From positions 1 through 41,005 of IMG/VR virus record IMGVR_UViG_3300027801_000054: a DNA stretch of 41,005 nt. One strand, given 5' to 3'. Position 1 is the stretch's first letter; the number at the start of each line of letters is the position of its first letter. Positions 3,259 to 39,697 of this stretch are shown here, piece by piece. Below the pieces are notes generated by a model that was given only the letters and a program-made list of their open reading frames with translations, had not been told where the DNA came from and ran no database searches. This DNA comes from a virus. The translations under genes were made by a program, and so were the position numbers.

Positions 3259-4557
3259 ATGAAATTCAGAACGTTATTATTAGGACTAACTGCATTGTTT
3301 GTTGCATTTAATGCGGCATTCTTTTCGGTAAGTGGTTTATCTAAACTATTTGCTGGAGCGGCTGTATCTGTAATAATAATGGCAAGTTCATTAGAACTGG
3401 CTAAACTTATAACGGCTGGTTATCTATACAACTATTGGGATAAGATAAACAAATCATTTAGAATTTATCTAAGTGGAGCAGTTCTTATATTAATCCTTAT
3501 AACATCATTAGGTATCTATGGATTTCTAACATCTGCATTTCAAGATACATTTAACCAATTCAGTATAAAAGAAAAACAATTAGCATTCTTAGAACAAAAA
3601 GAAAAGTTTTGGGGTGATGATGTAATACGATATGATGAAGAACTTAAAAGAATTTCTACTAACATTAGTACTCTTTCTAATGCGAAATCTCAATCAATCC
3701 AAGTACGAGACACCTCGGTGGTTGGGGGCATTAGAACAACCATCTCTACTTCCGAACTTAGGATTTCTCAAAAACGTATCGAAGTTGAAGAACAAAATCG
3801 TAAAGGTGTTCAGTCCAAAAGAGAAGTAGCGGCAGATTCACTACAAACAATTCAATTAAAAATATTAGATATTGAATCATCCGAGGGTGTATCATCTGAA
3901 TTAGGACCTTTAGAATATCTTAGTGGGTTATTAGATAAGCCTATGGATGTTATTATCAATTGGTTTATACTAATCATTATCTTTGTATTTGACCCGTTAG
4001 CAGTAGCTCTTGTAATTGCTTTTAGTAATGCAGTTAAAGTTGATAGAGGTATCGTAGATAAAGAAAACGTTATTCGTAAGAGAGAACTATATGAGGAAGT
4101 TCCAGATACAGGTGATGAGGAAAATGATAATGATTGGGAAGATGATGAGGATGTTCAAGATTTCTTAGAAAGAGAAGATAATCAGTTTGAAACTGATACA
4201 GATGATGATAGTGATGGAATATTTACAGTTGCTGGAATGACAAATGATAAAGAACAATCTTTCAATGAGTTTCAAAAGAAACAAGATGAGTTTGATAAAT
4301 CTGATTTAAATAAAGATGGAGTTGTAACCGAAAAAGAGAGAAGAATTAATTACGAAGAATCTGCTTGGAGAAATTCGTTTAAAGGAGCTCCTTTCTATAC
4401 ACACCCATGGTTCGATTGGAGTAAACGAGAACGCTGGGTAAATGATAGGGAAGCAATCAATTATTGGTTAAAGAATAAGGGTGGCAATCACACTGCTCTT
4501 GCTGACTTTCTTAACAAAACAAAGTACCCAGATAACTTCGATAAAAAAACTTACTAA
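3259..4557 (+). CDS. Multi-pass membrane protein with coiled coil and EF-hand loop
   Basis: A 432-residue protein. There are three hydrophobic helices near the N-terminus (about 5-25, 30-55 and 70-92), a long charged coiled coil (about 97-215), a fourth helix (about 232-258), then a very acidic soluble tail. In the tail, residues 349-360 read DLNKDGVVTEKE, an exact EF-hand calcium-loop pattern (D-x-N-x-D-G-x-V-x-x-x-E). The C-terminal 60 residues are aromatic-rich. I recall similar membrane proteins of unknown role in marine phage contigs. It may act at the inner membrane during infection or lysis. It lacks the small size of a holin. Confidence 0.82.
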   Translation: MKFRTLLLGLTALFVAFNAAFFSVSGLSKLFAGAAVSVIIMASSLELAKLITAGYLYNYWDKINKSFRIYLSGAVLILILITSLGIYGFLTSAFQDTFNQFSIKEKQLAFLEQKEKFWGDDVIRYDEELKRISTNISTLSNAKSQSIQVRDTSVVGGIRTTISTSELRISQKRIEVEEQNRKGVQSKREVAADSLQTIQLKILDIESSEGVSSELGPLEYLSGLLDKPMDVIINWFILIIIFVFDPLAVALVIAFSNAVKVDRGIVDKENVIRKRELYEEVPDTGDEENDNDWEDDEDVQDFLEREDNQFETDTDDDSDGIFTVAGMTNDKEQSFNEFQKKQDEFDKSDLNKDGVVTEKERRINYEESAWRNSFKGAPFYTHPWFDWSKRERWVNDREAINYWLKNKGGNHTALADFLNKTKYPDNFDKKTY

Positions 4558-4561
4558 AAAA

Positions 4562-4593
4562 TTAGGTTATATCAAATAATTTTCGTATATTTA
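4562..4593 (+). promoter_or_regulatory. Bacteroidota-type promoter for uvdE
   Basis: TTA (4562-4564), a 21-base spacer and TATATTTA (4586-4593). The TTAGG -33 variant with 21-base spacing recurs at 11345 and 13534. Confidence 0.75.
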
Positions 4594-4623
4594 CTTTATA
4601 AATAAACTATAAAAGAATAAAAT

Positions 4624-5571
4624 ATGAATTTAGGTTACGCTTGTATCAATTCCACATTAGGTTCTCAGAAACCACGAGTAACAACAAATCGAAGTATGAT
4701 TAAACGAACTTTCACAGAAAGGGGTATTGATTATGCTAGTGAACTAGGGTTATTAAACGCTAAAGATTTATTCACAATACTTCAATGGAATAACGAACAC
4801 AACATAAAATGTTTCAGAACATCATCGGATATATTTCCATGGGGTTCTGAGTATGGATTACAAAATGCTCCTGATTACAAGGAAATAAAATCTATATTAC
4901 AATTATGTGGTAAGTTTGCAGATGAACATGGTATTCGTATTACATCACATCCTGGTCCGTTTAACGTATTAGTTTCTCCTCGTGAACACGTGGTAGAGAA
5001 CACTATAAAAGATTTAGAGTTACATGGTGAGGTATTTGATATGATGGGTTTATCTCGTACTCCTTATAATAAACTAAATATACATTGTAATGGTGTGTAT
5101 GGTGATAAGATTTCTGCTATGGATAGATTCTGTAAGAACTTTGAAAGATTATCAGAATCCGTACAGACACGTTTAACGATAGAGAACGATGATAAAGCTA
5201 GTATGTACTCAGTAAAAGATTTAATGTACATACATGAACGTATTGGTATCCCTATTGTATTTGATTATCACCACCATGGTTTTCAAACAGGTGGTTTATC
5301 AGAACAAAAAGCATTAGAACTCGCAATGAGTACATGGCCTAAGGGTATTACACCAATGGTTCATTATTCAGAATCAAAAAGATTACATGAGGGTAATGAT
5401 AAACTAAAAGAACAAGCTCATTCAGATTACATTAATCAATTACCAAATTTATATGGTAACAATGTAGATGTAATGGTTGAGGCAAAAGCAAAAGAACTAT
5501 CCATACTTCCATATATTAATTCAAATAAATGTGAGTATAGTGGATTATTGAGTACATCAAGTTATGAATAA
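4624..5571 (+). CDS. uvdE: UV damage endonuclease (UvdE/UVDE family)
   Basis: The enzyme nicks DNA 5' of cyclobutane dimers and 6-4 photoproducts and so starts repair. At 315 residues it has normal length. The N-terminus LGYACINSTLG...TTNRS is the family signature, followed by IKCFRTSSDIFPWGS. All seven expected metal ligands of the TIM barrel are visible in order: H109 (TSHPGPF), H154 (NIHCNG), E187 (TIENDD), D214 and H217 (FDYHHHGF), H247 (MVHYSES) and E286 (MVEAKAKE). T4 uses the unrelated DenV for this job. A phage exposed to sunlight would benefit. It has its own host-type promoter, and the downstream gene overlaps its stop by eight bases. Confidence 0.93.
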   Translation: MNLGYACINSTLGSQKPRVTTNRSMIKRTFTERGIDYASELGLLNAKDLFTILQWNNEHNIKCFRTSSDIFPWGSEYGLQNAPDYKEIKSILQLCGKFADEHGIRITSHPGPFNVLVSPREHVVENTIKDLELHGEVFDMMGLSRTPYNKLNIHCNGVYGDKISAMDRFCKNFERLSESVQTRLTIENDDKASMYSVKDLMYIHERIGIPIVFDYHHHGFQTGGLSEQKALELAMSTWPKGITPMVHYSESKRLHEGNDKLKEQAHSDYINQLPNLYGNNVDVMVEAKAKELSILPYINSNKCEYSGLLSTSSYE

Positions 5572-5761
5572 AGAAATGAGTATAGAAAGTAAAGATTGGT
5601 TAGATAGAAACGAATGGCCTAATATTCCAATCGATAGTGATGCATACGCACATTATACATATCTATCAGAATTGATGGAACAATTTGCTAAAGAATATCA
5701 CGAAAAACAACTTGTAAAATATGCGTTAGTAACAAAAACAAAGTTTAATAAGTTCTTATAA
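5564..5761 (+). CDS. 65-residue protein, unknown function
   Basis: A small soluble protein rich in Tyr, Trp and charged residues, with an N-terminal stretch SKDWLDRNEWPNIP and a helical C-terminus. The ATG overlaps the uvdE stop (ATGAATAA), which suggests translational coupling. A second in-frame ATG four codons later (5576) is an alternative start. No family is recognised. Position in the uvdE transcript is the only clue to role. Confidence 0.65.
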   Translation: MNKEMSIESKDWLDRNEWPNIPIDSDAYAHYTYLSELMEQFAKEYHEKQLVKYALVTKTKFNKFL

Positions 5762-5770
5762 TAAAAAGTT

Positions 5771-5920
5771 ATGAAAAAAGAAAAGAAAGTAAGACAGTAC
5801 AGAAGTAATCAAGGAAGAAGTCCAAGACAACAAGAAGGGAATGAAAAAATGATGTTTGTAAGTTGTATGGGATTATTAGCTACAATGTTAGGTATGATTG
5901 TATATGGTATATTCTCATAA
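5771..5920 (+). CDS. 49-residue single-pass membrane protein
   Basis: The first 26 residues are very basic and Gln/Arg-rich (begins MKKEKKVRQYRSNQ). A hydrophobic segment follows (about 28-47, MFVSCMGLLATMLGMIVYGI) and ends at FS. Positive charges at the N-terminus predict that this end stays in the cytoplasm. Size and shape resemble small phage membrane proteins of unknown role. Its stop overlaps the next start (TAATG), so it belongs to the same transcript as its neighbours. Confidence 0.68.
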   Translation: MKKEKKVRQYRSNQGRSPRQQEGNEKMMFVSCMGLLATMLGMIVYGIFS

Positions 5921-6138
5921 TGGGACAAATTAATAAACCAGACACAGTTGTTGTTGTACATAAAGGTCCTCGTAAAAACTCTAAAATTAAATTAGAAATA
6001 TTTACTAATGGAACACGAGTTGATGATATTATTAATATGAGAAAACTAAAACCACTAATACCAAAAGAAAACGAAATTTTAGAAATAGGAGTAGGTGTTT
6101 CATTCATAGAAAGATATAAGAAAAAATATAAGTTTTGA
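5920..6138 (+). CDS. 72-residue basic protein, unknown function
   Basis: I chose the ATG at 5920 because it overlaps the upstream stop as TAATG. A longer in-frame extension back to 5863 would run through the previous gene in another frame. The protein is basic, with beta-like segments (VVVVHKGPRKNSKIKLEIF) and a Lys/Tyr-rich C-terminus (RYKKKYKF). This could bind nucleic acid, which is inference. Its last three bases overlap the start of the helicase gene. Confidence 0.68.
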   Translation: MGQINKPDTVVVVHKGPRKNSKIKLEIFTNGTRVDDIINMRKLKPLIPKENEILEIGVGVSFIERYKKKYKF

Positions 6139-7514
6139 AGTTACGTGAAAATCAAATAGAACCAGTAGCAATTGGTGTGGAGTTTATGAAAACTCCTAAA
6201 ATGAAACCTTCGATTATCGTTGCCCCTACGGCATTCGGTAAATCGATTGTTATTGCTGCAATTGCCAAAGAACTTGGTGAAAAGTTATTGGTTCTACAAC
6301 CATCAAAAGAATTATTAGAACAAAACTATAATAAGTTTGTTGCACTTGGTGGAACTGCATCAATCTACTCGGCATCGGCTGGTAGTAAAGAGATGGGAAG
6401 GGTTACTTATGCAACAATTGGTTCGATAATCAATATAGCTCAAGAGTTCAAACAAATGGGAGTTACTAAAATCATCATAGATGAATGTGATAGATACCCA
6501 AGAAACAAATCAGGACAATTAAGAAAATTCGTAGATGGAATGAAAGCATCTCATGTACTTGGTTTAACCGCAACTCCTTTAAAGTTACAAACGAATATGG
6601 GAGATACTGGTCCGTATTCAAAGTTAGTAATGTTAACTAATAGAAGTAAACATGGAATGTTCTTTAAGTTCATACTTCATGTTTCTCAGATTCAAGATAT
6701 TGTTAAGTTAAATTACTGGTCTCCATTAGAATATCAATCATATGATTTCGATACAGGTGCACTAGTTTACAATTCAAGTGGTGCAGAATATACAAGTGAT
6801 TCGATTGCTCGTTCTTATGAGAATCAAAATATTGGTGATAAGATTGTAAAGAAGATTGCAGAAGTACAAGATAGAAAATCTATATTAGTTGCAGTACCAA
6901 CGATAGAACAAGCTACTAATCTCGCAAAGAGAATACCACAAGCAGCAGTAGTTCATGGTGGTACACCTAAACAAGAAAGAAAAAGAATCATAGAAGAATT
7001 TAGAAATCAACAGATACGAGTTATTGTACAAGTTAATGTACTAACAGTAGGATTTGATTATCCTGAATTAGATTGTTTAATTACAGGTAGACCAACTGCA
7101 TCTATATCTTGGTGGTATCAGTTTGTTGGAAGAGGAACTCGTATCCATGATAATAAGAAAAACTGTTTAGTCGTTGATTTCGTGGGTTCTAAGGAACGTT
7201 TCGGAAAAGTAGAGGAATTATACTACAAGCAAGATGGAAAGGAAAATTGGGAACTCTATGGGGAGGATACGAAACAACTAACAGGTATACCAATGCATGA
7301 AATTGGTATTCACTTAGAAGGTGGTATAAACTTATCAGAAAAGAAAAACGAAGATGGTGATATTGAAAAAGTATATATGACCTTTGGTAAGTATAGTGGT
7401 AAGCCTGTTGCATCAGTTCCACCTTATTATAGAAAATGGTTGATAGATAATATCACATGGGGCCCCTGGAACATGAAAATTAAAAATGAAATAGAACGTT
7501 TAGCAGGTTTTTAA
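6135..7514 (+). CDS. Superfamily 2 DEAD/DEAH-type helicase
   Basis: A nucleic-acid-dependent ATPase of 459 residues with the full SF2 motif set: N-terminal LRENQIEPV (Q-motif-like), Walker A PTAFGKS (31-37), DECD box (116-119), LTATP (motif III, about 148-152) and QFVGRGTR (motif VI, 329-336). The architecture matches phage UvsW-like or bacterial RadD-like helicases acting in recombination and fork rescue. The start is a TTG at 6135 that overlaps the previous stop. Starting at the first ATG (about codon 18) would delete the LRENQ motif. The C-terminal 100 residues carry an unassigned domain. Which subfamily it belongs to is uncertain. Confidence 0.88.
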   Translation: MKLRENQIEPVAIGVEFMKTPKMKPSIIVAPTAFGKSIVIAAIAKELGEKLLVLQPSKELLEQNYNKFVALGGTASIYSASAGSKEMGRVTYATIGSIINIAQEFKQMGVTKIIIDECDRYPRNKSGQLRKFVDGMKASHVLGLTATPLKLQTNMGDTGPYSKLVMLTNRSKHGMFFKFILHVSQIQDIVKLNYWSPLEYQSYDFDTGALVYNSSGAEYTSDSIARSYENQNIGDKIVKKIAEVQDRKSILVAVPTIEQATNLAKRIPQAAVVHGGTPKQERKRIIEEFRNQQIRVIVQVNVLTVGFDYPELDCLITGRPTASISWWYQFVGRGTRIHDNKKNCLVVDFVGSKERFGKVEELYYKQDGKENWELYGEDTKQLTGIPMHEIGIHLEGGINLSEKKNEDGDIEKVYMTFGKYSGKPVASVPPYYRKWLIDNITWGPWNMKIKNEIERLAGF

Positions 7515-8593
7515 TGTATAGAAAATTATTATATAATGATGATTGTATTTTAAATATACTCACTAATACTGTTATTTTTAATTTTGAAGAAGATTGGAAA
7601 CTGTATTTGGATTGGGAAGCTGATAACATAGAAGAAGTTGAAGAAGACCTTCTTAAAAAAAATAATATATTACTTTGGAATGGAGGAGCACCCAAGGTAG
7701 AACCCACAGAAACCGGAATATTATCAACTCTTTATGATAAGTCTGGTAATTTAGTAAAGAAAATAGATGTATCTGATGGTATCACAACAACTGAAATATT
7801 TCACTCAAATGGATTCGCAAGTAGTTTAGTACGTAGTACTAACAAGCGTATTATATATTCATCCACATATTCGTTATATGGAAATATAATGAATGAAGTG
7901 AGTATTTCTGAAGAAGATGATTCCAAAGTAGAAACACAGTATCACGAAAACACTAAACCGAACACAACGGCCATAAGAAGTTTTCATTCCCAAGATGGGA
8001 TTAAATTATTCTATGATATCAATGGGGAGGTAATTAAAAAAGAAGAACCAAATAAGATATCATATTTATACAACGGAAATATTACTAAAGTAGAAATATT
8101 AGAAAACAATACAATCATATCAACCGAGCATTACTCAGAAAAAACACAAGTTTTATATAAACGTGATGATCATAAATTAAAAATATTTATTAAATTTAAT
8201 ACAATTACTGGTGAAATTGTTTGGTATAAAAGAAATAAAGCAGATTTTGAATATGAGGTTTACTATGATAATCAGATTAAAATAAAAACAATTTTAAAAA
8301 AATCAAATAAATTATTAAAATTCATAAAATATTTTGATGGTATGGATTCGATTGATAAAAAACTATATCATATAGGTAATGATATGTACAAATGTTCTAC
8401 ATATTTCACATCAGGAAAACTTAGAGGCATAGGGTCGTTATCTGATGATAATAAAATGCAAGATGAATGGGTTTTCTACCACCACAATGGTAACATAGAA
8501 TCAAAACATAAATTTAATGAAGGTAAATTAATTGGTAATTCTTCATTGTTTTATGAAAATGGAAATCTATATAAAGAAATAACTCATGATTAG
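7514..8593 (+). CDS. MORN-like repeat protein of unknown function
   Basis: A 359-residue soluble protein built of short Tyr/Asn/Gly beta-hairpin repeats. The clearest lie near the end (about 315-357): FYHHNGNIESKHKFNEGKL and SLFYENGNLYKE match the 'YxxNGxLxxxxxYxxGxxxG' MORN_2-type pattern. Weaker repeats occur through the middle (YDKSGNL, SLYGNIM). The N-terminal 60 residues are acidic and different (EEDWKLYLDWEADNIEEVEED). Such repeats act as binding scaffolds in Bacteroidota proteins. The gene overlaps the helicase by one base and the next gene by eight, and begins the visibly more AT-rich five-gene cassette. Confidence 0.72.
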   Translation: MYRKLLYNDDCILNILTNTVIFNFEEDWKLYLDWEADNIEEVEEDLLKKNNILLWNGGAPKVEPTETGILSTLYDKSGNLVKKIDVSDGITTTEIFHSNGFASSLVRSTNKRIIYSSTYSLYGNIMNEVSISEEDDSKVETQYHENTKPNTTAIRSFHSQDGIKLFYDINGEVIKKEEPNKISYLYNGNITKVEILENNTIISTEHYSEKTQVLYKRDDHKLKIFIKFNTITGEIVWYKRNKADFEYEVYYDNQIKIKTILKKSNKLLKFIKYFDGMDSIDKKLYHIGNDMYKCSTYFTSGKLRGIGSLSDDNKMQDEWVFYHHNGNIESKHKFNEGKLIGNSSLFYENGNLYKEITHD

Positions 8594-9458
8594 TTTTATT
8601 ATAGCATTTGCAAGTAGGGGTGATAATTTGCATGATTGGAAAGATACCGATGGTGGTATGATAATACTTTCTACTATCCTTGCTATTAAAAATATAAACA
8701 AGGTAATTGATTTACCTAAAGAAATTATATTAGTAGATAATACTAATACTTTTCCTGATATTAAAATTCCTAACTTGAAAATAGTAAAAGGAATTCAACA
8801 TTTAACAGGAGATAAATTAACAGATAAACTTAGGGTAAAATATAAAATAAATGACGTTACAAATCACACCATGTGGGCATCAATCGCATATACCATCGGC
8901 ATTGAGCATTCAATTGGAGATTACATAGTACTACAACATAATGATATATTTTATCAACAAAACCTTTTACCTAATTTATTAAATTTACTAAAAACAAACG
9001 AATATGTTTCAGTAGATTCCAAACACCTAACCTTAACTGGTTATTTAGGAAACAAAGATATTATAGATAGTTTGGGAATGGAGTTTGAATTTGGTTATGA
9101 AGATGGAGGACATATAAAACAAAAAGAATTTGGAATGGCAGATGCCTATTTCTTTTTATGTAAAAAAGAATTCTTTAATGATTATTCTGTTGACTGGGGA
9201 TATGGTGATACCAACCATGGGGCTACAATAAAATGTTTACTCGAAGGTAAATCATTTTTACACCTCGGTCCATTCTTTGGTAATAGAAATTATAAAACAA
9301 AAGATGAACTCCATGTATATGATGTTGATGGAATAGATTTTATTACTCACTTAAAGGGGGGATTTTCCGAACATAAAATGTCTTATAAAATAGAAAATAA
9401 TAAATATAATATGGATGTTTCTAATTTGTATATGAATAAACTTATACTATACTCATGA
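8586..9458 (+). CDS. GT-A-fold glycosyltransferase-like protein
   Basis: A 290-residue protein. The N-terminus SFIIAFASRGD is a Rossmann-type first strand, as in family 2 glycosyltransferases. The segment SIGDYIVLQHNDIFYQ (about 117-132) sits where the metal-binding D-x-D motif is expected, but reads H-N-D. Later come GMADAYFFLCKKEFF and a region with conserved-looking Trp, Gly and Asp. Transfer of a sugar from a nucleotide sugar is the likely role, with acceptor unknown. It overlaps both neighbours (8 and 4 bases), and the next gene is a second glycosyltransferase. The incomplete D-x-D lowers certainty about activity. Confidence 0.65.
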   Translation: MISFIIAFASRGDNLHDWKDTDGGMIILSTILAIKNINKVIDLPKEIILVDNTNTFPDIKIPNLKIVKGIQHLTGDKLTDKLRVKYKINDVTNHTMWASIAYTIGIEHSIGDYIVLQHNDIFYQQNLLPNLLNLLKTNEYVSVDSKHLTLTGYLGNKDIIDSLGMEFEFGYEDGGHIKQKEFGMADAYFFLCKKEFFNDYSVDWGYGDTNHGATIKCLLEGKSFLHLGPFFGNRNYKTKDELHVYDVDGIDFITHLKGGFSEHKMSYKIENNKYNMDVSNLYMNKLILYS

Positions 9459-10177
9459 ACGTAGTTGTAATATATGTTAATAAATCTGATAAGAGTACAG
9501 AAAGTGCAAAACATACTCAACGTATCTTTAAAGAAAAACTTGATATTGATGTTACTTTATTTAATGGAGTAAATGTGGATAGTGTTTGGCAAACATTTAT
9601 TGATTCTAATTTTAATATACTTGACTGGACACACTTTGGAGCTGGACACGTAGATTCTGAAATAGCTACATTCTTTTCTCATTATAATTTGTGGTGGAAT
9701 TGTGTGATGTTAAATGAACCCATGTTGATACTTGAACATGATGCTATTTTAAATGATACGAATCTTGATTTAAATATTTTAAAAAACTTTAAAGGAGATT
9801 TATTAAATTTAGGAGAACCAAATTGGGGTAGCTTTTGGTATGGGGATTTTGAATCTGAATGGATAAATAAACCATCTGGAATTAGAAAAAGATTTGTGTG
9901 TAAAAATAAACATGATTCTTATCAAGTGTGGAATACACAAGAAGGATTTTGTCATTGTGATACAATGTGGTTGTTTGGAGCTCATGCATATTTACTAAAT
10001 CCGAGTGGTGCTGCTAAATTAGTTGAAGGTACTCAACAAGGAATACTTCCAGCAGATGTTTTTATAAGAACTGATTTATTAGATATATATGATTATCTAC
10101 CACATCCAATAAAACAACACTCACAATTTACATTAATACAACGATATGAAAAACAAAAAGACCATAAGAGGATATAG
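9455..10177 (+). CDS. Glycosyltransferase family 25-like protein
   Basis: A 240-residue protein with the GT25 (LPS galactosyltransferase) pattern: VVVIYVNKSD start, then HVDSEIATFFSHYNLWW (family 'E-x-G/A-x-x-x-S-H' region), LILEHDAIL with E94-H95-D96 in place of the usual E-D-D, and GAHAYLLNPSGAAKLVE near residue 175. The family adds galactose or glucose to lipo-oligosaccharide or to proteins. As in the gene before it, the metal motif has a histidine. Its last 32 bases overlap the methyltransferase gene, a long overlap even for this genome. Confidence 0.75.
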   Translation: MNVVVIYVNKSDKSTESAKHTQRIFKEKLDIDVTLFNGVNVDSVWQTFIDSNFNILDWTHFGAGHVDSEIATFFSHYNLWWNCVMLNEPMLILEHDAILNDTNLDLNILKNFKGDLLNLGEPNWGSFWYGDFESEWINKPSGIRKRFVCKNKHDSYQVWNTQEGFCHCDTMWLFGAHAYLLNPSGAAKLVEGTQQGILPADVFIRTDLLDIYDYLPHPIKQHSQFTLIQRYEKQKDHKRI

Positions 10178-10865
10178 CCATATTAACGTAGGTTGTTCAC
10201 ATGAAGAACTAATTGATGAGTGGTTGGGTATAACTATATGGGGAGGAGAATATGAAGGACTTGAAGAACTCAATACTGAAAATGGAATTACAGTATATAG
10301 ACATACCGATAGTGGAGGTGATATCATTAACCATAATGTTAACAATGGATTGCCCTTTGAAGATTCTTCAGTTGAGGTAATATTCTCATCACACTTTATA
10401 GAACATCTTACATTTGAAGAAGGATTGAATTTTCTTAAAGAATGTTATAGAGTTCTTAGACCAGGTGGTATATTGAGGATTATTTGTCCTGATATTATGT
10501 TATGGATAAACAAAATACACGAGGTACATGATTGGAAATTTTTTGAAACATATAAAAACCAACTGGATACTCCATATTGGGAAAATTCGGTTTATCATAT
10601 TAAGGATAAAGTTAAAACAAATACACAAGTTTTAAATTCAATGATTTTTAATTGGGGACATAAGTGGATGTGGGATTATGAATCATTAAAAATGGAATTG
10701 GAATCTGTGGGATTTGGTTCAATAGAACAAATGGAACATCTAAAAAGTAATATCGGTATAATAGAAAACATAGAAACACGATTATCCAAAGATAAGATAG
10801 AAGCAAGAAATTTAGAATCTATGTTTGTAGAATGTAAGGCAATTATAAAGTTAGATTTATCATGA
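10146..10865 (+). CDS. SAM-dependent methyltransferase (type 11-like)
   Basis: A 239-residue class I methyltransferase. Visible are motif I HINVGCS (12-18), an acidic residue after strand 2, LPFEDSSVEVIFSSHFIEHL (motif IV/V region, about 62-81) and the post-motif LRPGGILRIICPD. The 'SSHxIEHL...LRPGGxLRIxxPD' pattern is typical of methyltransferases encoded in glycan biosynthesis clusters. It is not a DNA methylase, since no DPPY or PC motif is visible. With two glycosyltransferases just upstream, sugar O-methylation is the best guess. The start overlaps the upstream gene by 32 bases, and the stop overlaps the next start (ATGA). Confidence 0.82.
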   Translation: MKNKKTIRGYSHINVGCSHEELIDEWLGITIWGGEYEGLEELNTENGITVYRHTDSGGDIINHNVNNGLPFEDSSVEVIFSSHFIEHLTFEEGLNFLKECYRVLRPGGILRIICPDIMLWINKIHEVHDWKFFETYKNQLDTPYWENSVYHIKDKVKTNTQVLNSMIFNWGHKWMWDYESLKMELESVGFGSIEQMEHLKSNIGIIENIETRLSKDKIEARNLESMFVECKAIIKLDLS

Positions 10866-11344
10866 TATCTGAATTACAAAATTTATTAAATAACAAATCT
10901 GATAACCTGTATGTATATACTAAAATGATTGTAAGAGAAAATTCAGAGTTCTCAATGAATGTCAATTCAACAATATCTTCCGAGATATTAACTAATATAA
11001 TTTATTTTATCAATAAACTTAATACAAAAAATGTTATACTAGTATGTAGAAGTTCTAATGAACCATTTGCAGACGAACACCCAACACAAACTCATCTAGA
11101 TTTAATAAAAAACCAAACCGATAAAAACATTATAATATTTTATCAAGACCCATGGCCAGAACCTGTTCCATCATTTATAGAAATGGATACAACTGTGATT
11201 AGATTTGGATTTGATGAAGGATGTGAGTTGGATAAAAAATGTATTGACCCGAACTTTTCAATTGTAATGGAAGATGGTGAGTATAATTTTTTAGTAAATA
11301 AAAACAACTCAATTAATTTAAATAATAAAAAAAGTATAATTTAA
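10862..11344 (+). CDS. Unknown protein ending the glycan cassette
   Basis: A 160-residue soluble protein with alternating beta strands and helices: KNVILVCRSSN (about 56-66), KNIIIFYQDPWPEP (about 88-101) and TTVIRFGFDEGCELD. The order suggests a Rossmann-like or small alpha/beta fold. I do not recognise a family. It overlaps the methyltransferase stop by four bases and is the last gene before the thymidylate synthase promoter, so it probably works with the cassette. The region is especially AT-rich. Confidence 0.68.
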   Translation: MISELQNLLNNKSDNLYVYTKMIVRENSEFSMNVNSTISSEILTNIIYFINKLNTKNVILVCRSSNEPFADEHPTQTHLDLIKNQTDKNIIIFYQDPWPEPVPSFIEMDTTVIRFGFDEGCELDKKCIDPNFSIVMEDGEYNFLVNKNNSINLNNKKSII

Positions 11345-11380: not shown

Positions 11381-12391
11381 ATGAATAAACTAGATGAACA
11401 ATACCAGAATTTAATTTACGATATATTAGAATTTGGTGTAGATAAGAAAGATAGAACCGGAACAGGAACGATATCCACATTTGGTAAACAAATCAGACAC
11501 AATATGAAGGATGGGTTTCCTTTGTTAACTACAAAGAAAATGGCTATCAAAACTATGATGACTGAATTGAAATGGTTCTTAAAGGGAGATACCAACATCA
11601 AATATTTAGTTGATAACGGATGTAACATTTGGAATGGTGATGCTTATAAAGAATATAATCGAGCAAAGGGGCATCTAATTGAGTTAGAAGATTATACTGA
11701 AGTTGAATTCATTAATATGATTAAAACCGATGATGGGTTTGCAAACTCGTGGGGTGAGTTAGGACCAATTTACGGTAAGCAATGGAAGGGTTGGAAAACG
11801 AATACTGTTAGTATAGACCAAATACAAGACCTTATATCAGAATTAAAAACAAATCCAGATAGTAGAAGGTTAATGGTATCAGCATGGAATGTTGGTGAGT
11901 TAGACCAAATGACTCTTCCACCTTGTCATTATGGATTCCAAGTTTACACTAGGGAGTTAAGTGATAAAGAGAGGTATGATTATTGGTTTAAAAATAATTA
12001 TGAGACAGGTATGGAATACAATGAATCTAACATACCTAATTTTGATGATGATTATTATACGACAACACCTAAGAGGTCTATATCCTTAATGTGGAATCAG
12101 AGAAGTGTAGATACGTTCTTAGGATTACCATTTAACATAGCATCATATGGTATGTTACTCACCCTACTCGCAGAAGAGGTTGGGATGATACCTGGTGAAC
12201 TTATTGGTAATTTAGGTGATACACACTTATATTCTAATCACGTTGAGCAGGCAAGAGAACAGATGGAAAGAAAGCCATTTGAGTTACCAACAATTGAAAT
12301 ACATATGAGTGATATATTAAATGGTGAATTTGATTATGAAATAAAAGGATATGAATTTCACCCAAGTATTAAAGCATCATTAAGTAATTAA
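11381..12391 (+). CDS. thyA: Thymidylate synthase
   Basis: Makes dTMP from dUMP using methylene-tetrahydrofolate. It has 336 residues. Seen: DRTGTGT, FPLLTTKK, GELGPIYGKQW, DSRRLMVSAWN, the catalytic PPCHYGFQ (C182), LPFNIASY with N252, and GDTHLYSNH. N252 is the residue that prefers dUMP (Asp marks dCMP enzymes), and W84, equivalent to E. coli W80, is kept. Hydroxymethylases usually change it, so a methyl-forming enzyme is indicated. An insertion of about 40 residues (about 195-234) after the catalytic loop explains the extra length over the 264-residue E. coli enzyme. The start at 11381 gives the normal N-terminus. The next gene follows after one base. Confidence 0.95.
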   Translation: MNKLDEQYQNLIYDILEFGVDKKDRTGTGTISTFGKQIRHNMKDGFPLLTTKKMAIKTMMTELKWFLKGDTNIKYLVDNGCNIWNGDAYKEYNRAKGHLIELEDYTEVEFINMIKTDDGFANSWGELGPIYGKQWKGWKTNTVSIDQIQDLISELKTNPDSRRLMVSAWNVGELDQMTLPPCHYGFQVYTRELSDKERYDYWFKNNYETGMEYNESNIPNFDDDYYTTTPKRSISLMWNQRSVDTFLGLPFNIASYGMLLTLLAEEVGMIPGELIGNLGDTHLYSNHVEQAREQMERKPFELPTIEIHMSDILNGEFDYEIKGYEFHPSIKASLSN

Positions 12392-12566: not shown

Positions 12567-13532
12567 ATGATTAGAACAGCAGAATGTGTATCTCCGATGC
12601 ACCCAGACAAAATGTGTGATAGAATATCAGACACATTATTAGATTTACATTTAGAACAAGACCCAAACTCACGAGTAGCAATTGAAACTTGTGGTGGAAT
12701 TGGTATGGTGTTTATTACAGGAGAAGTTACTTCGAATGCAGTAGTAACAAGAGAAACTATTGTAAATGTAGTACATAATATAACTACCGATGATACAATT
12801 GAAGTTATTATTAACATCAACTCACAATCGCCTGAGATTGCAAATGGAGTTGATACTGGTGGAGCAGGTGACCAAGGAATAATGATTGGTTATGCTTGTA
12901 GAGATAATAAAGAATTTCTACCACAAGAATATTATTTATCAAGAGAATTAAATAAATTTGTATTTGATAAATATCCATATGATGGTAAAACTCAAGTTAC
13001 TATGAATGGGAACTCATTAAGAGTCGTATGTTCATTTCAGAATGCACCAGGAAAACAATTAGAGAAATTAGTAATGGAATATTTTGAAGATTATCCTGAT
13101 TACTTTATTGAAGCATTACATTGTAATCCTGCAGGTGATTGGAACATTGGTGGGTTTACTGCTGATGCAGGATTAACTGGTAGAAAGTTAGCAGTAGATA
13201 ATTACGGACCTAGAGTTCCACTTGGAGGTGGGGCATTTAGTGGTAAGGATTCTACTAAGGTTGATAGAAGTGCAGCTTACATGGGAAGAAGAGTTGCAGT
13301 AGATATCTTAGAAAAAAGACCAGAGGTACAAGAAGTAATGGTTCAACTTGCATACGCAATTGGATATGACCAACCTCTTCAAGCAACTGCTATCGTTGAT
13401 GGAGAACACGAATTTATCAAAGGATATGATTTATCACCTAAAGGAATAATTGAGTTCTTAGAACTTACGAAACCAATATTCGCATCTACTGCTGGGTTTG
13501 GACACATGGGTGCTGGATTTAATTGGAAATAA
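12567..13532 (+). CDS. metK: S-adenosylmethionine synthetase (short form)
   Basis: Makes SAM from methionine and ATP. Key motifs match bacterial MetK: ECVSPMHPDKMCDRISD (HPDK, with H12 beside the ATP phosphates), GAGDQGIMIGYA, NIGGFTADAGLTGRK and the loop GGGAFSGKDSTKVDRSAAY. At 321 residues it is shorter than the usual 380-400. Deletions fall between the motifs and at the C-terminus, while the catalytic residues appear intact, so it is probably active. It would feed SAM to the phage methyltransferase at 10146 or to DNA methylation, or support methionine metabolism. It sits in one operon with thyA. Confidence 0.94.
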   Translation: MIRTAECVSPMHPDKMCDRISDTLLDLHLEQDPNSRVAIETCGGIGMVFITGEVTSNAVVTRETIVNVVHNITTDDTIEVIININSQSPEIANGVDTGGAGDQGIMIGYACRDNKEFLPQEYYLSRELNKFVFDKYPYDGKTQVTMNGNSLRVVCSFQNAPGKQLEKLVMEYFEDYPDYFIEALHCNPAGDWNIGGFTADAGLTGRKLAVDNYGPRVPLGGGAFSGKDSTKVDRSAAYMGRRVAVDILEKRPEVQEVMVQLAYAIGYDQPLQATAIVDGEHEFIKGYDLSPKGIIEFLELTKPIFASTAGFGHMGAGFNWK

Positions 13533-13581: not shown

Positions 13582-14055
13582 ATGAGTAAAAAATACAAAG
13601 TAATATTAATTAGTGGTGGATTTGACCCTGTTCATAAAGGACACATACAATGTATCCAAAAAGCCAAAGAGTTGGCAGAAGAAGTTTGGATTGGATTAAA
13701 TAACGATAAGTGGTTATATAGAAAAAAAGGTAAATCTTTTATGAAAGAAGGGGAACGAAAGTTTATCATGGAATCATTAAGAGATGTAGATTATGTTTAT
13801 GTAATGAATCCACTTATACATGGTGATGATACCGCAATTGATTTCATTGACCATGCAAAACACAAATGGCATGCTACATATAGTGATGATATAAACGGTA
13901 AAATGGCATTTGGTAATGGTGGAGATAGAACAGAAACAACTACACCAGAGAACGATGTATGTAATACATACGGAATAGAATCAGTATGGGGGTTAGGTAA
14001 AAAAGTACAATCATCATCTTGGTTATTAGAAAAATATTTAAATATAGCAGAATAA
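13582..14055 (+). CDS. Cytidylyltransferase-like nucleotidyltransferase
   Basis: A 157-residue protein of the HxGH nucleotidylyltransferase superfamily. The N-terminus VILISGGFDPVHKGH holds the nucleotide-binding motif, with H18 and H21. The usual C-terminal signature (ISSTxxR) is replaced by VQSSSWLLEKYL, which keeps the serines but lacks the Arg. Relatives activate glycerol phosphate, heptose phosphate, phosphoethanolamine or FAD/NAD precursors. In this phage it could make a nucleotide-activated group for the glycan enzymes, which is inference. The substrate cannot be read from sequence. It has its own promoter and overlaps the next gene by one base. Confidence 0.8.
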   Translation: MSKKYKVILISGGFDPVHKGHIQCIQKAKELAEEVWIGLNNDKWLYRKKGKSFMKEGERKFIMESLRDVDYVYVMNPLIHGDDTAIDFIDHAKHKWHATYSDDINGKMAFGNGGDRTETTTPENDVCNTYGIESVWGLGKKVQSSSWLLEKYLNIAE

Positions 14056-14294
14056 TGGATATAGAAAAATTAGTAAAAGAATTTCCAAACGATATGGAAC
14101 TTGGAAAAGAAGTAAGATATAGATACTTCGAGGCAACAAAAGATATGAAAAAGTTTTTAGAAAAATATAAAGATTGTAAAATTTACGAATCACCTGATGG
14201 TGGTAAGACTATATATGTTAGAGGATTCGGTGAGCCGTTATCATCAAGAAAAATATCAACAAATCAATTAAATTTATTCGATGAAATTAATTAA
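14055..14294 (+). CDS. 79-residue protein, unknown function
   Basis: The ATG at 14055 forms TAATG with the previous stop. An in-frame extension to 14019 would lie wholly inside the previous gene. The product is soluble, helical at first and beta-like at the end: CKIYESPDGGKTIYVRGFGEP, then a Gln/Asn segment TNQLNLFDEIN. QLNLFDE resembles a sliding-clamp-binding (QxxLF) peptide at the extreme C-terminus, an observation of pattern only. It overlaps the deformylase gene by 14 bases. Confidence 0.7.
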   Translation: MDIEKLVKEFPNDMELGKEVRYRYFEATKDMKKFLEKYKDCKIYESPDGGKTIYVRGFGEPLSSRKISTNQLNLFDEIN

Positions 14295-14892
14295 AGATCA
14301 AAATAAGTTAAGAACACAACTTTTACCAAAACCAATGTCTCAATCAGCTGTTGATTCTATTTCGGAAAAACTATTAACCGAATTAACCAAACATGGTGGA
14401 TTGGGGTTATCTGCAAATCAAATAGGATTAACAGATAGGGTTTGTTTGATAAACGTAAAAGACCCATTGATATTAGTTAACCCAAGGGTTACTGAAGCAT
14501 CAAAAGAAACCGTTGTTTATGTAGAACAATGTTTATCTTTAGATAAGACAATGAAAAAACCAGTTAAAACTTTAAGACATAAATCATTTACAGTAGAGTG
14601 TGATAACTTGGGAACAGTTATCTTTTCATCTGATAAGACTGATTGGAAGGATTCAAATGAATTCTATCAAGATGAGGGATTATTAGAATGTGTATGTGCA
14701 CAACATGAGATAGACCATTTGAATGGAATTCTCATAACAGATGCAGTTAGAAGATACACTACAACATTTACACGAGGAAAAAAGTACGGTAGAAACGATA
14801 GAGTTATGGTAAAATTATCAGATGGTTCTACTGAATTTATGAAGTACAAAAAAGCTGAACCTTTATTAACAAAGGGAGCTGAAATCTTATAA
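14281..14892 (+). CDS. def: Peptide deformylase
   Basis: Removes the formyl group from new proteins. All three family motifs are visible: GLGLSANQIG (GxGLAAxQxG), EQCLSL with metal ligand C84, and QHEIDHLNG with H142, E143 and H146. It has 203 residues, of which about 45 after the last motif (GKKYGRNDRVMVKLSDG...) are an extension I also associate with other phage deformylases. Phage enzymes of this kind occur in marine T4-like phages and may speed maturation of phage or host proteins. One substitution in motif 1, Ser for the first Ala (GLSA), is conservative. It overlaps the previous gene by 14 bases. Confidence 0.93.
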   Translation: MKLIKDQNKLRTQLLPKPMSQSAVDSISEKLLTELTKHGGLGLSANQIGLTDRVCLINVKDPLILVNPRVTEASKETVVYVEQCLSLDKTMKKPVKTLRHKSFTVECDNLGTVIFSSDKTDWKDSNEFYQDEGLLECVCAQHEIDHLNGILITDAVRRYTTTFTRGKKYGRNDRVMVKLSDGSTEFMKYKKAEPLLTKGAEIL

Positions 14893-17202: not shown

Positions 17203-18906
17203 ATGGTAAGTGGTTATATTTTAGGAATAAGTTGTGGATATCATGATTCTGCTGCTTCGTTGATAAAGGATGGGAAAGTATTAGGAGCATGTGAGGAAGA
17301 AAGATTCACAGGTATAAAACACGATTCATCTTTTCCAATTAACACTATTAATTGGTTGGTTGAAGAATTTAAAATCAAACCCAATGATTTGAAGGCAGTT
17401 TGTTTTTATGAAAATCCAGAATTAAAATTAGATAGAATTGAAACTTCTACAAAAAAAGGAGGATGGAAAAACTTCTTTAATAGATTAAAAATAATATCTA
17501 GAAATAAGAAAGTATATAAGGATACAATATCACAACTAGAAACTTTACGAGGAAGTGAAACTCAGTTAATTTATTGTGACCATCACTTATCTCATTTGGC
17601 ATATTCATATTATACATCTCCTTTTAATGAATCTGCTTTATTATCGGTTGATGGTGTTGGGGAATGGGAAACTACTTCACTTGCAAAGGCATCGGATGAT
17701 ATTAAAAAAATAGGTTCTGTTAAGTTTCCACATTCTTTGGGAATGTTATACTCTACATTTACTGCATTTTTAGGATTCAAACCAAACGAAGGTGAATATA
17801 AAGTAATGGGATTAGCTCCATATGGAGATGCATCTAAGTATATAAATAAATTCAAAGAACTATATACCACTACTAAAGATGGTGGGTTTGAATTAAACAT
17901 GGATTACTTTACTTATGAGTGGTCAACTAATAGTATGTTTAATCAAAAGTTATCGGAGCTTTTTGAACTACCAAATAGATTACCAGAAGAAACATTAGAA
18001 CAAGTACATAAAGATATTGCAGCATCGCTTCAACAAATTTATGAATTCTTATTTTTTAGATTATTAGATACATTATACAAACAAACCAAATCCGAAAACT
18101 TATGTTTAAGTGGTGGGTGTGCATATAATGGTACTGCTAATGGGAAAATTTTAAAAAGAACAAAATTCACAAACTTATATATTCCACCAGCTCCATCAGA
18201 TGCTGGTTCAGCTATTGGATGTGCATTACACTATGCATATAGTACTCCAGGAAATAGAGTTGATAATTCTAATCCATATTTAGGACCAACATTTAATACC
18301 GATGATGTAGTTACTGCTCTTAAGGTATATGAGAAGGATGTTTGGGGTGAGAGAAAATTATATGAACAGATAACCAATATAGTTGCAAATGAAATTGTAG
18401 ATGGAAATGTAATTGGTTGGGTAGAAGGTAGAATGGAATTTGGTGCAAGAGCATTAGGTAATCGTTCCATACTTGCAAATCCAAGAGATCCTCAAATGAA
18501 ATCTCGTTTGAATAGGGTTATTAAAAAAAGAGAAGGGTTCAGACCTTTCGCACCAATGGTATTAGAAGAATCATCTTCAATATATTTTGATTATGAAGAT
18601 ACCGTACCATTCATGAATCAGGTTGTCAAAGTACGAGATGAACACAAACATCATTTACCGGCAATAACCCATGTAGATGATTCGGCACGAATACAGACAG
18701 TTAATAAAAGACAACATAGAAGAATGTATAATTTACTTGAACGGTTACAGGTTATAAATGAGTATCCACTTGTTATTAATACTTCTTTTAATTTAAAAGA
18801 CCAAACAATGGTATTAACACCACTTGATGCAATTAAAACATTTTTAAATTGTGAGATGGATACTTTAATACTTAACAATTATATTGTAAAAAAGAAAATA
18901 ATTTAA
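17203..18906 (+). CDS. Carbamoyltransferase (NodU/CmcH/TobZ family)
   Basis: A 567-residue two-domain enzyme that uses carbamoyl phosphate and ATP to carbamoylate a hydroxyl group. The N-terminal Kae1-like domain begins ILGISCGYHDSAASL. It has the metal/catalytic His motif DHHLSHLAYSYY (H127, H128, H131), LLSVDGVGEW and EYKVMGLAPYGD. Further on are LCLSGGCAYNG and APSDAGSAIGCAL. The C-terminal domain has GRMEFGARALGNRSILANPRD and REGFRPFAPMV. It is full length with no lesions. Family acceptors are sugars, antibiotics or, in some phages, modified DNA bases. It stands alone behind a late-type element and just after the sigma gene, pointing to late expression. The acceptor is unknown. Confidence 0.93.
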   Translation: MVSGYILGISCGYHDSAASLIKDGKVLGACEEERFTGIKHDSSFPINTINWLVEEFKIKPNDLKAVCFYENPELKLDRIETSTKKGGWKNFFNRLKIISRNKKVYKDTISQLETLRGSETQLIYCDHHLSHLAYSYYTSPFNESALLSVDGVGEWETTSLAKASDDIKKIGSVKFPHSLGMLYSTFTAFLGFKPNEGEYKVMGLAPYGDASKYINKFKELYTTTKDGGFELNMDYFTYEWSTNSMFNQKLSELFELPNRLPEETLEQVHKDIAASLQQIYEFLFFRLLDTLYKQTKSENLCLSGGCAYNGTANGKILKRTKFTNLYIPPAPSDAGSAIGCALHYAYSTPGNRVDNSNPYLGPTFNTDDVVTALKVYEKDVWGERKLYEQITNIVANEIVDGNVIGWVEGRMEFGARALGNRSILANPRDPQMKSRLNRVIKKREGFRPFAPMVLEESSSIYFDYEDTVPFMNQVVKVRDEHKHHLPAITHVDDSARIQTVNKRQHRRMYNLLERLQVINEYPLVINTSFNLKDQTMVLTPLDAIKTFLNCEMDTLILNNYIVKKKII

Positions 18907-39118: not shown

Positions 39119-39697
39119 TTGAGTTTACTGATAAATAGTTCTGAAAAATGGGCATTTATTCATATACCCAAAACAGGTGGAACATCACTATCTTCCATTA
39201 TTAGGGGAATAGATGGAACACAACAAATTACAGGACATGATTCTATAAGATGGGTTGATGATGTATCCGATTATTATATTTTTACAATAGTAAGAAATCC
39301 GTACACACGAATCGCATCCGCTTACAATCATGAGCTTAGAAAAAAAGCACACAATTATTCATTTGGTGAGTTTTTAAAAAAAGCAAATCCATTTCATCAA
39401 TGGATTCTCCCCCAAAGTTACTACATTAATGCGGGAAAGACGAAACACAGAAAAATATCATACGTAGCTCATTATGAAAATTATGGGAACGATGTAACAC
39501 AAATATTAAATAAAATAAATTGTACTTCAACTATTCCGCATCTTAACCGTAATCCAATTTACGATACACATCCAACTTTAAATCAAGAAAATTATTATAA
39601 ACACTTCTTTACAGAAGAGTGGATGGTCGATTGGGTAAAAGAAAGATATCAAGATGATTTCAAAATATTTAACTATGACATGGACTTACCAAGGTAA
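39119..39697 (+). CDS. Sulfotransferase (Sulfotransfer_2-like)
   Basis: A 192-residue protein. The N-terminus WAFIHIPKTGGTS (residues 11-23) is the 5'-phosphosulfate-binding loop, with K18 as the key lysine. IVRNPYTRIASAYNHE is the 3'-phosphate-binding motif. The family moves sulfate from PAPS to sugars or proteins. It begins at a TTG (39119), because the conserved loop starts 11 codons later and no ATG precedes it in frame. It is short but complete at both motifs. The acceptor is unknown, possibly the same glycan as for the carbamoyl-, methyl- and glycosyltransferases. PAPS must come from the host. It overlaps the next gene by 23 bases. Confidence 0.88.
   Translation: MSLLINSSEKWAFIHIPKTGGTSLSSIIRGIDGTQQITGHDSIRWVDDVSDYYIFTIVRNPYTRIASAYNHELRKKAHNYSFGEFLKKANPFHQWILPQSYYINAGKTKHRKISYVAHYENYGNDVTQILNKINCTSTIPHLNRNPIYDTHPTLNQENYYKHFFTEEWMVDWVKERYQDDFKIFNYDMDLPR

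Follow-up and report, generated by a model that had tools for sequence, protein, structure and literature searches.

A conserved and exchanged gene cassette of a MORN_2-repeat protein, two predicted glycosyltransferases and an orphan protein in marine phages

In a 41-kb linear IMG/VR fragment (record IMGVR_UViG_3300027801_000054, positions 1 to 41,005; the window), which comes from a marine contractile-tailed phage, the genes at 7514-11344 form a cassette encoding a MORN_2-repeat protein, two predicted glycosyltransferases of the GT2 and GT25 types, a methyltransferase, and an orphan protein, g5. The order MORN-GT2-GT25-g5 is kept in divergent phage genomes, and identity and tree comparisons indicate that the cassette is frequently exchanged between phages as a block. 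Its probable function in the infected cell is the addition of a decorated sugar chain to a protein or surface glycan. The nearest matches of the window’s baseplate-wedge protein are in Microcystis phage Mel-JY01 (42%), an uncultured phage (39%) and Flavobacterium phage immuto (37%).

The five open reading frames delineated in the first-pass annotation were confirmed, all on the plus strand and all starting with ATG: the MORN_2-repeat protein (7514-8593, 359 aa), the GT2-type enzyme (8586-9458, 290 aa), the GT25-type enzyme (9455-10177, 240 aa), a class I S-adenosylmethionine (SAM)-dependent methyltransferase (10146-10865, 239 aa) and g5 (10862-11344, 160 aa). Outside the cassette, the 3′ end of a superfamily 2 DNA helicase gene (6135-7514, plus strand; phrog_16, E=6.5e-70) reaches one base into the MORN gene; overlaps of 8, 4, 32 and 4 bases follow along the cassette, and a 36-base gap separates g5 from the flanking, canonical thymidylate synthase gene thyA (11381-12391, plus strand; PF00303, E=1e-91). 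The AT-richness remarked on at first pass is real, the cassette having a G+C content of 0.280 against a mean of 0.312 (standard deviation 0.013) for equal-length stretches of the window, none of which (0/372) is as low; the cassettes of relatives are likewise low (0/359, 2/612 and 3/505 stretches as low).

Single-gene and alignment scans yielded eight distinct near genomes, window included: the window, L008, L009, L011, L012, L014, L025 (record G013) and L053, with the near-identical pairs L009/L010 (record G003) and L014/L013 (record G006) each counted once. A search for the same gene order, suggested at first pass, found MORN-GT2-GT25-g5 kept in all 8 of these IMG/VR genomes, 7 of them seen to both ends; L008 begins inside the MORN gene, so that MORN is only partly visible there. 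Because scans seeded with GT25 or g5 returned cassette loci only, the association is not merely a consequence of GT2-based searching. Two candidate relatives, L006 and L007, proved spurious, the L007 match falling in a portal-like protein. In 50,697 deposited phage records, tblastn gave no match to the MORN, GT2, GT25 and g5 proteins of the cassette; Mel-JY01 and immuto, the closest named phages by baseplate protein, thus showed none of these genes.

In a second phage group (L015-L024), the MORN and GT2 genes are direct neighbours at 7 of 9 loci, and L017 and L020 have one or two genes between them. There the MORN-GT2 unit sits upstream of a T4-type clamp loader, amid dense clusters of PhyH oxygenases, methyltransferases, radical-SAM proteins and further glycosyltransferases; Mel-JY01 has a glycosyltransferase/methyltransferase cluster of its own, downstream of the clamp loader. 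In this group, fusions of MORN repeats with GT8 occur (by Pfam in L016, by similarity in L015), and in L023 a radical-SAM-like protein bears such repeats, judged by sequence. The second-group GT2 and g5 proteins likewise had no tblastn match in the deposited phage records, and the second-group MORN protein had one weak match. Distant GT2 homologues (28-29%) in L026 and L027 lack a MORN partner.

Comparison of the cassette with its flanks revealed separate histories. Between the window and its close relative G006, identity is mostly 68-90% in flanking and structural genes (baseplate 78-81%, helicase 90%) and 42-51% in the cassette; between the window and the more distant G013, GT2 is 74% and GT25 66% identical, yet the baseplate only 55-57%. 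The helicase is 89-93% identical to its orthologues, and the cassette genes of those genomes 36-60%. Flank trees place the window and L008 with L012 and G006 (support 100/100), while the tree of GT2 and GT25 combined places them with G013 (support 100/100). Approximately unbiased tests of the cassette versus flank groupings gave p=3.2e-11 and 0.009, and the flank grouping was rejected by GT2 alone (p=1.8e-5) and GT25 alone (p=0.004), p-values that are somewhat optimistic since the groups were chosen after viewing the identity table. The GT2 and GT25 trees place L053 differently, which argues that pieces have also been swapped separately; g5 shows a third history. In G013 the cassette is relocated: it follows phoH, and the uvdE-thyA site used by the others lies ~5 kb downstream of it. 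Within the near clade, the ratio of nonsynonymous to synonymous substitution rates was 0.12-0.68 for the cassette and 0.07-0.41, mostly under 0.24, for the flanks; the cassette is under purifying selection that is looser than that on the flanks.

The MORN protein comprises an N-terminal domain of ~71 aa followed by predicted beta-hairpin repeats. PF07661 (MORN_2) matches only the last repeat at the C-terminus (21.2 bits, E=2.8e-4, under the 29.6-bit cut-off), and second-group homologues score 55-117 bits. An AlphaFold2 model showed near-continuous beta-hairpins at low confidence (pLDDT 65, pTM 0.30), and a 3Di comparison of this low-confidence model found viral MORN/YwqK proteins over most of its length (best E=1.7e-11). 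In its weakly scoring repeat and in the hairpin fold suggested by this model, the cassette protein resembles MORN_2/YwqK-type proteins; it differs from them in having its own N-terminal domain and a gene coupled to a glycosyltransferase gene. The N-terminal domain recurs in the second phage group; a tail-fibre identity considered for it was dropped, a hidden Markov model having found the domain in no other open reading frame of three relatives. A scaffold or acceptor-docking role is proposed for this protein. Our literature search found no paper joining MORN proteins with phage glycosyltransferases.

Both glycosyltransferases named at first pass are upheld by profile score, so that 8586-10177 does hold such enzymes when judged by profiles rather than by fold. 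Gene 2 scored 27.6 bits against PF00535 (GT2; cut-off 23.3), with its family above cut-off in 12/12 relatives, and gene 3 scored 60.4 bits against PF01755 (GT25; cut-off 24), with 10/14 relatives above it. An alignment of 18 GT2 sequences has 37 invariant columns, among them the motif QHND; the metal site departs from the canonical D-x-D or x-D-D in reading HND, with the final Asp retained, in 18/18 relatives. The GT25 motif E-x-D reads EHD, END or ETD, both outer acids being constant. The histidines singled out at first pass are therefore present as described and argue nothing unusual by themselves: HND is invariant among the homologues and the middle GT25 residue is variable, the normal state of these subfamilies. 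A PDB profile search with GT2 gave a weak match to SpsA (E=0.42), and a scan of the genome collection with two short exact patterns only confirmed no bacterial GT2 homologue. Gene 3 is by score a member of Glyco_transf_25, the family of lipooligosaccharide and collagen galactosyltransferases, from which it is set apart by H, N or T in the middle of E-x-D, and no collagen-like acceptor was found for it in the window; PHROG 61, named 2-oxoglutarate (2OG)-Fe(II) oxygenase, also matches this protein.

The methyltransferase (Methyltransf_11, PF08241; 42.6 bits, cut-off 21.2, E=1e-10), taken at first pass for an integral part, is missing from 6 of the 8 genomes that retain the rest, and only L053 carries it at the same place (56% identical). 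L053 also has a PhyH 2OG-oxygenase inserted between GT2 and GT25 (1/8 genomes), and L025 an insertion of a second GT25, an unknown gene and a sulfotransferase (1/8). Since the tailoring genes differ between genomes, methylation is optional. Two further enzymes of the window lie outside the cassette: a NodU/TobZ-type carbamoyltransferase downstream (17203-18906; PHROG 1601, E=1e-117), kept in relatives, which may be a further glycan-capping enzyme, and a sulfotransferase among late tail genes (39119-39697; PF03567, PHROG ‘galactose-3-O-sulfotransferase’).

The last gene, unrecognised at first pass, indeed has no Pfam or PHROG family and is present in all 8 near genomes. The g5 protein carries the motifs P.P..VP.F and RFG.D.GCE.D, and its fairly confident alpha/beta AlphaFold2 model (pLDDT 81, pTM 0.81) matched nothing in PDB or BFVD at E<=0.001. 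Iterated profiles related g5 to five large phage proteins over their N-terminal ~170 residues (L037:195-2549, L048:16378-18333, G003:99143-101053, L019:9486-11102 and L021:12479-14044; hhalign probability 94%). The three near-clade members of this set bear Hint/intein-type C-terminal domains (two by Pfam, one by sequence), and the two second-group members had no Pfam match. An ‘LLEFNTD’-like motif in the large homologues and weak Foldseek matches to glutathionylspermidine synthetase had prompted consideration of an ATP-grasp ligase; this identity is not claimed, PF03738 and PF14403 being absent at E<=1.

From the observed gene content and order, we infer the following model. The overlapping genes are probably translationally coupled, and the GT2- and GT25-type enzymes would add sugars sequentially to an acceptor accessible from the cytoplasm, with the MORN_2 protein serving as scaffold or acceptor-docking subunit. 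The swappable enzymes (the methyltransferase here; the PhyH oxygenase, sulfotransferase and second GT25 in relatives) would cap or modify the product, presumably a short, variably capped glycan. The likeliest acceptor would be a host lipid-linked or envelope glycan, or else a virion protein, and a host glycan altered during infection could block competing phages; rapid cassette exchange fits selection for glycan variety. The five products look soluble, having no transmembrane segment and a maximum 19-residue hydropathy of 1.39. In both phage groups the cassette lies beside genes for replication and nucleotide metabolism, suggesting that it is expressed in the early or middle phase of infection. 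We lean towards this reading of a phage glycan-tailoring cassette with soluble glycosyltransferases, a MORN scaffold and exchangeable capping enzymes. Against it, the second group keeps only MORN and GT2 together, with GT25 and g5 elsewhere or not seen, and the enzymes could serve separate pathways. What survives of the first-pass proposal is one functional, exchangeable block with a glycan-building role; an integral methyltransferase, a DNA target and special histidines are not supported.

The main rival, which we regard as possible, is virion glycosylation, in which a capsid, tail or fibre protein is modified and late virion proteins are the acceptors. Soluble enzymes would suit a cytoplasmic protein acceptor, several proteins of the window are long and of fibre type, one of them matching LamG weakly, GT7-LamG fusions occur in the late region of G013, and virion glycans of mycobacteriophages are cited in PMC12619734. 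Against this, the cassette lies in both phage groups among the neighbours described above and not in the late region, and no collagen-like acceptor turned up in the window, only a run of four G-x-x triplets in a 1767-aa protein. The G013 fusions, which join two GT7 galactosyltransferase domains to lectin-like LamG domains (L040:2516-3949 and 4353-5819; G013 ~102-106 kb), are found beside epimerases and a radical-SAM protein.

That the MORN_2 protein is itself the glycosylated product of its neighbours seems unlikely. MORN and GT2 are the most persistent pair (8/8 near genomes, one cut by a contig end, and side by side in 7 of 9 second-group loci), and the MORN protein varies from 225 to 727 aa across relatives and is, together with g5, the fastest evolving. 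Its fusion to GT8 and the radical-SAM-like carrier are more in keeping with a binding module than with a substrate, however, and no repeated glycosylation motif was seen in it. Chance sharing of a hotspot by unrelated accessory genes is a shade more doubtful still: the optional methyltransferase, the conflict of GT2 and GT25 over L053 and the third history of g5 would fit it, but the order is kept in 8 distinct genomes despite ~50% divergence, and the cassette is found as a block at another site in G013.

Glycosylation of hydroxymethylated pyrimidines in phage DNA to evade restriction, the DNA target raised at first pass, is very improbable, the thyA product being canonical and the base-hydroxymethylation route not found. 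Phages do apply glycosyltransferases to DNA, as also cited in PMC12619734. The thyA product can be aligned to thymidylate synthases of known structure across LPPCH and PFNIASY and is the one convincing family member in each record (38-128 kb). Its superfamily includes hydroxymethylases, which speaks for a DNA target; no hydroxymethylase was found, and neither TET/JBP nor a cytosine C5-methylase in seven records, all of them fragments. With the precursors of the DNA route missing, a glycan on a non-DNA, cytoplasm-facing acceptor is favoured. Thymidylate synthases usually end in V or I; those of the window and its relatives end in SLSN or PLSN.

Other genes of the window near the cassette are a phage-encoded UV-damage endonuclease, UvdE (4624-5571; PF03851, E=5e-64), and, all kept across relatives, a gene designated metK-like by its sequence (12567-13532), an HldE-like cytidylyltransferase (13582-14055) and a peptide deformylase (14281-14892).

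Among described systems, pelagimyophages resemble the present phages in being marine T4-related myoviruses with glycosyltransferases, radical-SAM cassettes and variable gene content; their survey reported glycosyltransferases in hypervariable regions and proposed host O-chain modification (PMC7029224). In that paper, MORN proteins are unmentioned and GT8 is most frequent, whereas here the order MORN-GT2-GT25-orphan is fixed. The gtrABC serotype-converting clusters of temperate phages are likewise phage-borne glycosyltransferases exchanged between phages, but the cassette has neither a membrane flippase nor a membrane-bound transferase. For mycobacteriophage virion glycosylation, we know of no MORN partner, tailoring genes or cassette exchange. 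That system (Freeman 2023, as cited in PMC12619734) shares phage-encoded glycosyltransferases and a possible virion target, and belongs to different phages.

The ‘undescribed system’ of the first-pass annotation thus holds for the combination and the orphan family and not for the enzyme classes, each of which is known; no earlier description appears to exist of the conserved, recombining gene set, of the repeat protein that partners it or of the orphan gene at its end. Uncultured marine phages encode many glycosyltransferases, whose acceptors are mostly a matter of guesswork. Because the core described here is compact, has a defined composition and a gene order that persists in divergent genomes, and recombines as one block, the question can be tested with few proteins. 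Persistent gene coupling and domain fusion also connect MORN_2 proteins, usually labelled ‘antitoxin’ or unexplained, with the chemistry of glycans. More tentatively, the cassette may be a phage-specific modular glycosylation machine, with a MORN_2 scaffold or acceptor, a GT2 subfamily unseen in deposited phages, g5 as a subunit, and swappable caps; if so, it would provide a shuffling glycan signature in phage-phage or phage-host conflict.

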